Shown in pieces: positions 2,235-5,038 of a DNA stretch of 5,092 bases. Numbering within the stretch: the first letter of the stretch is position 1; each line of letters starts with the position of its first letter. Position numbers and translations under genes: made by a program. A model generated the notes under the pieces. The model saw only the letters and a program-made list of their open reading frames with translations, ran no database searches and was not told where the DNA came from. This stretch comes from Deltaproteobacteria bacterium (GTDB lineage: Bacteria > Desulfobacterota > Desulfobacteria > Desulfobacterales > Desulfatirhabdiaceae). Location: assembly GCA_026388755.1 (NCBI GenBank), contig JAPLJE010000564.1:1-5092 (forward strand), written 5' to 3'.

Positions 2235-3423
2235 CTATTTCGCCTGTTCGAAAATATTTTCCCTCGATACCATTTCCAACTTCACACTCAGTCCCAGTGC
2301 CTTGCGCAAAGCGAACTGAATCTTTTCATGGAGGACGGTTTTCCTGCTGCCCGCATCGTTTATTATTTCATCAGAAGCATTCACCCTGATGTTTAACTGA
2401 TCATTCATTCCGGCCTTTTGGTGAATCACGAGGGAATATTCCGACCCGATCCCTTTGATGCCGGAAAGCACCTCCGCGATTGTTTCCGGAAAAACATTGA
2501 TCCCCCGCACGGAGATCATTTGATCCGTTCGCTTAAAAATCCGGTTCATCCGGACCAGGGTCCGGCCGCAGGCGCAGGGCTTTTTGCAAAGTGCTGTTCT
2601 GTCGTGGGTCCGGTACCGGATAAGGGGATACGCGCTGGTGGTCAGGCTGGTCAGAACCAGCTCTCCCTCCTCGCCTTCTTTAAGGGACTGACCGGTGACC
2701 GGGTCGATGATTTCCGGAAAGAAGTGATCCTCGAAAATATGAAGGCCTGATTTGGCCGAACATTCGCCGGAAACCCCGGGCTCGATCAGTTCCGAGACGC
2801 CGTAAATGTCGAATGCCTTTATCCCCAGACCTTCCTCGATGAGGCTGCGGGCGCTTTCCGGCCATGGCTCTGCTCCGAAAAGTCCGATTTTCAAGGACAG
2901 TTCTTTGGGGTCGATCCTTTTTTTATTCATGATTTCGATGATGTGAAGGGCAAATGACGGGGTTGAAACCAGGACCGTGCTGCGGAAATCGCGCATGATC
3001 CGGATCTGAACATCGGCCGGGGCAACGGAAGCCGGAACCACTGCGGCGCCGATCAGCTCCGCGCCCTGGTTGAACCGGAAAGCCCCCATGAAAAGGCCGT
3101 AATTGAAGGCGACCTGAATGATATCATGCTCGGTGATACCCACCCCGGCCATGATCCGAGCCACGAGCTCTCTCCAGATTTTCAGGTCTTCCCGGGTGTA
3201 GCCGATGACAATGGGATTGCCGTAGTGGCCGAGGGGAAACTGTTTTTTTAAGATCCTCAAGGGTTTTGATGTCATCCGGGTTGATCCCGGCTGCATCAAA
3301 TTTGTTGCGATAAAAACGGACATTGGCGTAAGCATGGTTGATGAGAATACCCAGCCGCTCGTTCTGAAGGTCGAGGAGTTCGCGGCGATTCAGGGTCTCT
3401 GTTTCCGGATTGAATATGGCCAT
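2235..3423 (-). pseudogene. paaK: Phenylacetate-CoA ligase, frameshifted and lacking the ATP P-loop region
   Basis: AMP-forming cytosolic ligase family converting phenylacetate, ATP and CoA to phenylacetyl-CoA. The start is ATG 3423: AGGAG (3432-3436) lies 8 nt upstream, whereas an alternative GTG at 3432 overlaps that site. Residues 1-60 read as a normal N-terminus up to EDLKK, at an A7 run (3243-3249). The rest continues in another reading frame (from QFPLGHYGNPIVIGYT to the stop at 2235). Removing one base there restores a single frame of 395 residues. PaaK proteins are about 430, and the missing 30-35 residues are those that normally lie between the EDLKK region and GNPIVIGYT, including the SSGTTG phosphate-binding loop. 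Later motifs remain: GAEPW, YGVSELIEPG, YRTHDRTAL, GRTLVRM and RTDQMISVRGINVFP, plus the C-terminal ACT-like domain. It lies 15 nt after livF, last in the operon. Without the P-loop it should be inactive even if the frame were restored. A sequencing or assembly error is possible. Confidence 0.9.
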
Positions 3424-3438
3424 CTGTATCACTCCTAT

Positions 3439-4170
3439 TCATCGTTCCCATTTTTCCTTGTAATCATTTCCCAGAAAGGCCCGTTTCACCTCTGCGTTGT
3501 TCAGAAGCTCAACGCCTGCGCCTGTCAGGATGATCCGTCCGGTTTCCATCACATAGGCCCGGCTGGAAATCCGCAGGGCTTCCCTGGCGTTCTGCTCCAC
3601 AAGAAGGATGGTGGTCCCCATGGCGTTCAGGGATTGAATGATGCGAAACATCTCCGAGACAATGGCAGGCGCAAGCCCCAGGGACGGCTCATCCAACATG
3701 AGGAGTTTGGGCTTTCCCATCAGCGCCCTTCCCAGGGCCAGCATCTGACGCTCGCCTCCGGAAAGGGTTCCGGCCGCCCTGCCCCCGCGGTCCCGGAGAA
3801 TGGGAAACAGCGCATGGACTTTCTCGATTTCCGTCTTTAACGTATTACGGTCCAGGCGCCTGAGATAGGCGCCGAGTTCCAGATTCTCCAGAACAGTCAA
3901 GGGGGGAAAGATCTTGTCGGTTTCCGGCACCTGAATCAGCCCCATTCCAACGATCCTGTCCGGCTGCATGCTTTGAATTTCCCGGTCAAGAAACAAAACA
4001 CTGCCGCTTTTTAAGGGATGCAGACCGGAGATGACGTTCAGGAGCGTTGTCTTTCCCGCACCATTGGCGCCGATGAGAGAGACAATCTCACCTTCCCGGA
4101 TATGAAGCGATGTTCGGTGAAGGATCTGAATCTTTCCATAGACCACATCGATGTTTTTGATCTTCAGCAT
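3439..4170 (-). CDS. livF: Branched-chain amino acid-type ABC transporter ATP-binding protein LivF
   Basis: One of the two cytosolic ATPases that power LivH/LivM permeases of the hydrophobic amino acid transporter family. At 243 residues it is about normal length (E. coli LivF is 237). Motifs in order: Walker A GANGAGKT (34-41), Q-loop Gln80 in IQVPE, signature LSGGERQ (136-142), Walker B LLMLDEP (156-162), D-loop SLGLAP (163-168) and switch VEQN (191-194), where Gln replaces the usual His, as is standard for LivF. The usual VPEGRR after the Q-loop reads VPETDK here. The C-terminus extends slightly beyond the usual LG ending (FLGNDYKEKWER). There is no clear Shine-Dalgarno before ATG 4170, and 71 bp separate it from livG, which is loose for this operon. 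The association with paaK suggests an aromatic acid or aromatic amino acid substrate, but sequence alone cannot separate this from leucine, isoleucine or valine. It appears intact. Confidence 0.95.
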   Translation of the reverse strand: MLKIKNIDVVYGKIQILHRTSLHIREGEIVSLIGANGAGKTTLLNVISGLHPLKSGSVLFLDREIQSMQPDRIVGMGLIQVPETDKIFPPLTVLENLELGAYLRRLDRNTLKTEIEKVHALFPILRDRGGRAAGTLSGGERQMLALGRALMGKPKLLMLDEPSLGLAPAIVSEMFRIIQSLNAMGTTILLVEQNAREALRISSRAYVMETGRIILTGAGVELLNNAEVKRAFLGNDYKEKWER

Positions 4171-4241: not shown

Positions 4242-4991
4242 TCATTTCCCTAAATACGCCTCGATTACCTGCTGGTTTTTCTGGATATCATCGGGCCGGC
4301 CTTCGCCGATTTTGATGCCATGGTGAAGCACGATCAGGCTGTCTGAAATCGCCATGACCAGGCGCATGTTGTGCTCCACCAGGATGATGGTCTGGCCTTT
4401 TTCCTTGAGTCCGAGGATGAGATTGCCCATTTCTTCCATCTCGCGGATCGTCAACCCGGCCGCAGGCTCATCCAGAAGCAGGATTTCCGGCTGGAAGATC
4501 TTTTGGCGTTGCAGCCATCCGGAAAAATACATGATCGCGCAGGTTTTTGAAAAGAAGGATGCCTCGGTTCTGGAAGCACGGAAAATCACTGTTCGTTTCG
4601 AGGACGGCAGACGGAGCATGCCCTTGATAAAGCCGGACCTTGTCCGGGAGTGCATGCCGACCATGACATTCTCCAGAACCGTCATGTTCATAAAGAGCTG
4701 GGCCTGCTGAAAAGAGCGGGTAATGCCCATGGCGGCAATCTGAAACGGCTTCAGTCCTGCGATCGGTTTTCCCTGAAATAATATTTCCCCTGCATGGAGA
4801 GGATAAATGCCGGTGATGGCATTTAAAAGGGTGGTCTTGCCCGCGCCGTTGGGGCCGATAATGGAGACGATCCGCCGCGGATCAATGGAAAAGGAAAGGC
4901 GGCTGAGCGCCTCCAGACCCTCGAAACGAACAGTGATTTTCCGTGCTTCCAGAACCGAGGCATCCTTCTTTTCAAAAACCTGCGCGATCAT
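4242..4991 (-). pseudogene. livG: Branched-chain amino acid-type ABC transporter ATPase LivG, core replaced by an inverted copy of its own 5' end
   Basis: The reading frame is open over 249 residues (the family is about 255), but the protein is chimeric. Residues 1-129 are normal LivG: an N-terminal strand (ASVLEARKITVRFEGLEALS), Walker A GPNGAGKT (46-53), Q-loop Gln95 in TRSFQQ, then MTVLENVMVG. Residues about 170-249 are also normal: Walker B ILLLDEP (170-176), D-loop AAGL, switch His207 in VEHN, and the ending AYLGK. Residues about 130-169 match no LivG sequence. They are the antisense translation of the 120-bp livM/livG junction, inserted inverted. In E. coli LivG, 49 residues sit between the matching flanks (TPS and PEILMLDEP), including the signature equivalent of LSGGQ (AYGQQRRLEIAR). 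Here about 37 unrelated residues replace them. ATP hydrolysis needs that signature, so the product should be inactive. The start ATG 4991 overlaps the livM stop as ATGA; the Shine-Dalgarno is weak. Confidence 0.88.
4484..4603 (+). repeat. Inverted repeat copy A (120 bp, inserted copy inside livG)
   Basis: This segment is the exact reverse complement of 4919-5038, with all 120 bases matching. It is flanked by mismatches at both ends (A at 4483 and A at 4604 on this strand). Read on the plus strand it encodes the start of livG and the end of livM in their proper sense, but here it lies antisense within livG, so it is the secondary copy. It begins exactly at the codons for QPEIL before Walker B. 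Confidence 0.97.
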
Positions 4992-5038
4992 GTATTTTTC
5001 CGGATGGCTGCAACGCCAAAAGATCTTCCAGCCGGAAA
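4919..5038 (-). repeat. Inverted repeat copy B (120 bp, original copy at the livM/livG junction)
   Basis: This is the partner of 4484-4603, separated from it by 315 bp. It covers the last 17 codons of livM (including the stop) and the first 24 codons of livG, in natural frames and order, so it is the source copy. It includes the livG start codon and translation initiation region. Confidence 0.97.

Follow-up and report, generated by a model that had tools for sequence, protein, structure and literature searches.

Short inverted template switches have been described in several systems, and the portions of three reports drawn on here provide the closest comparisons. In great apes, short-range switches leave a reverse-complement copy of nearby sequence between native flanks, with a median copied length of 12 bases and a maximum of 128; in the four-point model used to describe them, switch points in the order 3-2-1-4 yield one inverted repeat (PMC7954356). 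Quasipalindrome mutation in E. coli takes the nascent strand as template and then returns, converting an existing imperfect inverted repeat into a more perfect one (PMC7202029). In starving E. coli, two inverted switches occur at microhomology of 3–30 bp, and embedded inverted duplications of 5.2–42.6 kb are linked to amplification, with one fork proposed for some inversions and fork dimensions given as ∼1.5 kb (PMC3161906). Here, we describe a 120-nt inverted copy of the livM/livG border inside livG, which resembles these events.

The window, the whole 5,092-nt stretch of DNA that was analysed, is an entire contig, one of 839 in a draft genome totalling 3,970,882 bases, with an estimated completeness of 92.95% and contamination of 5.68%. 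The closest genomes in a genome similarity search, G001 and G005 among them, belong to the same genus. The 3′ end of livM lies on the minus strand and is followed by livG, a livG-like ORF of 249 aa (4242–4991, minus strand). Two further minus-strand genes are livF (3439–4170) and a paaK-like ligase gene (2235–3432); an MscS-like channel gene (1124–2158) and a partial HlyD-like gene are also inside the window.

An inverted-repeat search of the window found that positions 4484–4603 (plus strand) are the reverse complement of positions 4919–5038 (minus strand) at 120 of 120 nt, in agreement with the original prediction. The arms are separated by 315 nt of native livG in normal orientation (4604–4918, minus strand), and the right arm stops 54 bases short of the contig end. 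The right arm covers the final 16 codons of livM plus its stop, together with the initial 24 of livG, and it is collinear with three relatives (L175, L176 and L177), confirming that the source copy is the natural livM end and livG start in its native place. The left arm is the inserted copy, which runs antisense within livG and supplies ∼39 residues in the middle of the ORF. Seven further inverted pairs were reported in the window, of just 16–22 nt and 77–88% complementarity, and a strand-folding prediction merely restated the inverted repeat. Across the window and 76 further readable contigs of this genome (443,670 readable bases in total), the second-longest perfect inverted repeat was 24 nt, and the longest in 34 loci from other genomes (141,839 bases, with overlap between some loci) was 20 nt. 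The 120-nt repeat is far beyond chance.

Compared with each of the three relatives with DNA, the copy (120 nt, 40 codons) occupies the place of 156 nt (52 codons), and the sequence flanking it is collinear with the unchanged gene on both sides. The path originally proposed, forward, then 120 bases from the opposite strand, then forward again, holds against all three, as do its 40 inserted codons and its kept frame; the number of native codons replaced, given there as about 49, is 52. The preserved reading frame encodes 249 aa, compared with 261 aa in the intact LivG relative P0002 and in most close matches listed. Identity to P0002 is 126/127 for residues 1–127, 7/39 for residues 128–166 and 77/83 for residues 167–249; the middle block matches at 7–12 of its 39 positions when 29 relatives (P0002–P0030, out of 119 other LivG matches listed) are aligned. 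Across four comparison genes, antisense stretches of 120 nt were open at 26–53% of positions, and with a one-third chance of a fitting length, an open in-frame outcome would be expected by chance in ∼9–17% of cases. The preserved open frame is therefore weak evidence.

The product still scores as an ABC ATPase in a profile search, with a Pfam ABC_tran score of 70.3 bits versus 96.2 and 96.0 in two relatives. An alignment of P0002 with 1g6h, a branched-chain amino acid ATPase of known structure, places the LSGGQ of 1g6h within the lost block. Because the copy replaces this signature motif region, we predict a dead LivG. At that position, intact LivG relatives read HI(C/S)ILDQRRLEIARA (P0002 ∼160–175 and the alignment consensus), so the signature motif of this group was unusual even before the lesion. 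Structure prediction gave a mean pLDDT of 67.3 for the window protein (below 50 at residues 1–9 and 94–158) and 73.7 for intact P0002 (below 50 at 1–9, 95–139, 144–146 and 156–162). Since the helical part is poorly predicted in both proteins, the models give no evidence of unfolding by the copy.

We placed both breakpoints by aligning livG with L175, L176 and L177, which stand in for the ancestor in all microhomology counts and random-pair comparisons. At the QPEIL-side join (4483/4484), the exact match with the replaced sequence is 7 nt against L175, 8 nt against L176 and 3 nt against L177. Thus, the microhomology originally proposed at this join is borne out by two relatives and falls to just three bases in the third. 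The match would reach ten or more bases if the ancestral codon there encoded Q, as in P0002. Similarity at this join, compared with random position pairs, gave P values of 0.14 (L175), 0.013 (L176) and 0.15 (L177). At the LPS-side join (4603/4604), the strict match is 1–2 bases; a patch matching G001 at 11 of 13 bases sits there, with the actual join three bases out of register, and P values from the same random-pair comparison were 0.007, 0.013 and 0.012 for L175, L176 and L177, respectively. As to an imperfect inverted repeat that may have preceded the event, as in quasipalindrome mutation, the relatives, as stand-ins, show short similar patches at both joins, one of them out of register; similarity was above that of random pairs in all three relatives at the LPS join and in one of three at the QPEIL join. 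Guidance of a switch by homology is suggested, not shown, by these matches.

The age of the change was judged from the copies and their flanks. The copies differ at 0 of 120 bases. In the N-terminal flank of livG, synonymous versus amino-acid-changing codons numbered 25 and 14 (L175), 32 and 14 (L176), and 45 and 20 (L177); the C-terminal flank gave 18 and 7, 14 and 8, and 22 and 10, respectively. Because synonymous differences outnumber amino-acid-changing ones, livG was constrained until recently. Purifying selection in the flanks, combined with identical copies, indicates that the event would be either very young or technical, the same pair of readings that the original prediction drew from the complete identity.

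We give an even chance to an origin of the inverted copy inside the cell, through a template switch in two steps, local and recent, while DNA was being synthesised. Judged from the DNA, the layout fits such an inverted switch. In the gene direction, points 3 and 2 are the ends of the source, point 1 is the end of LPS and point 4 is at QPEIL, giving the order 3-2-1-4. A stalled 3′ end would leave its livG template, anneal to the nearby opposite strand, copy 120 bases backwards and rejoin livG 156 native bases further on. Because point 2 comes before point 1, fold-back of the nascent strand is possible (PMC7954356), and in the gene direction, folding it back across 315 bases would be enough. On the other strand, the polymerase would have to jump to the opposite strand ahead of it, a jump that the QPEIL match could start. 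The distance to the source, 315 nt, is inside the size of an E. coli fork, which counts in favor of a template switch (PMC3161906), and the joins share 1–2 and 3–8 bases, which we infer to be too few for an assembler overlap. Counting against a switch are the LPS join, with so few matching bases, the constraint that the flanking codons show up to the present, and the copied length of 120 nt, which is near the great-ape maximum and far above the median (PMC7954356).

The main alternative, to which we assign somewhat less than an even chance, is a technical artefact, in which an in vitro chimera (from library end-repair fold-back, PCR or whole-genome amplification) was incorporated into a thinly covered contig. 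Library preparation yields inverted chimeras with short pairing (PMC10908179), and 406 of 475 chimeras from multiple displacement amplification were inverted (PMC1855051). Like the latter, the structure in livG has a nearby segment inverted, short pairing and an intervening deletion, here the 156 missing native bases. The complete identity of the copies also favors an artefact and counts against a real mutation, as do several other features: the fragmented 839-contig draft with 5.68% contamination, a position near the contig end, a second lesion in the paaK-like gene of the same contig, and the lack of a second record. No record with the change was found among the LivG matches listed, where the window's own protein (P0001) forms a cluster of one. 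The same strain was not recognised in the tables of 120 livF and 120 paaK protein matches listed, and a 31-base junction pattern was absent from viral_contigs, a result of little weight given how few bacterial genes are in that collection. Another, intact livG elsewhere in this genome was considered and rejected: of 11 DNA matches, three were the window or its arms, and the best other was 88% over 57 bases.

Other properties of the locus and its genome argue against an artefact. In the portions drawn on here, both artefact papers describe single inverted joins, with no return 156 bases on (PMC10908179, PMC1855051). Amplification chimeras, with one join each, would be expected library-wide (PMC1855051), but none of the other readable contigs, 76 in number and 438.6 kb in length, had a perfect inverted repeat longer than 24 nt. 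A general tendency of this assembly towards inverted chimeras is therefore ruled out. This sample comprised 140 of the 838 other contigs, with C92 covered only to base 20,000 of 21,404; 64 of the 140 (L028–L167) read wholly N. Five larger contigs among the 76 were also compared with G001 (69,235 bases queried); breaks were read by hand from match tables, which detects just those that split a BLAST match. Three of the 13 breaks fell within ORFs of at least 120 aa, because of which this control is not wholly clean: it cannot establish that the window's contig is the only one with lesions, and it is not clean in favor of an artefact either. On balance, we lean slightly towards a real, recent mutation.

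The sampled contigs also contained other repeats. Positions 1–100 of L083 and 40–139 of L089 (minus strand), at or near contig ends, are identical over 100 bases, possibly an overlap that was not merged during assembly. L071 contains an 89-base perfect direct repeat (2625–2713 and 3629–3717) and L083 a 60-base one (1537–1596 and 4878–4937); these may be pairs of paralogous genes.

The second lesion, which was not part of the original prediction, affects the paaK-like gene, where 83 nt found in both G001 and G005 are gone at 3242/3243, shifting the frame; close homologues among the matches listed are mostly 410–430 aa. The deletion lies 1.24 kb from the livG change, and its join has no clear microhomology. 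In G001, the stretch missing from the window carries an inverted repeat of 6 bases, set 7 and 8 bases in from the two ends of that stretch, and deletion through a hairpin may have been favored by this repeat.

The paaK deletion bears on a further alternative, repair of a break in the cell, in which end joining, after a double-strand break in livG and widening of the gap, took in a copied piece of the livM/livG border. We consider this very unlikely. The LPS join, matching at 1–2 bases only, and a nearby deletion without clear microhomology are what end joining might leave, but the source has stayed where it was, which means that copying of the piece must have come beforehand, and the QPEIL join has 7–8 matching bases in two of the three relatives. 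Finally, a mobile element or regulatory hairpin is ruled out by a copy that corresponds exactly to the livM/livG border and is flanked on each side by native livG, and a simple inversion by the source copy still present in its native place.

We also considered whether one replication accident in a wild uncultured bacterium made both lesions, the 120-base insertion with 156-base loss in livG and the 83-base loss in paaK. This seems unlikely; if true, it would parallel, in miniature and in a bacterium, the clustered multi-switch rearrangements of eukaryotes. If the inverted copy is technical, it is a warning that a draft genome can hold a false in-frame gene core accepted by profile searches as an ABC ATPase. 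If it is real, a bacterial transporter gene offers a clean natural case of two-step inverted template switching over a long tract (120 nt), seen before any divergence between the copies, and a second lesion may be of the same age.

A template switch in livG would share features with each of the systems described at the outset. Like the great-ape switches, it has a nearby reverse-complement copy between native flanks in the order 3-2-1-4; in contrast to them, it is bacterial, entails a loss of 156 bases and is compared with relatives in place of an ancestor, and it copies ten times their median length (PMC7954356). Like quasipalindrome mutation, it could use the nascent strand as template before returning, and leave a more perfect inverted repeat, but that process starts from an existing imperfect inverted repeat, whereas here there are short end matches, and these in relatives only (PMC7202029). 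It would share two inverted switches and short microhomology with the events in starving E. coli, where the embedded duplications are measured in kilobases and linked to amplification, compared with 120 bases here (PMC3161906). Thus, the type of mutation is already known, and the example in livG is notable mainly for its length.
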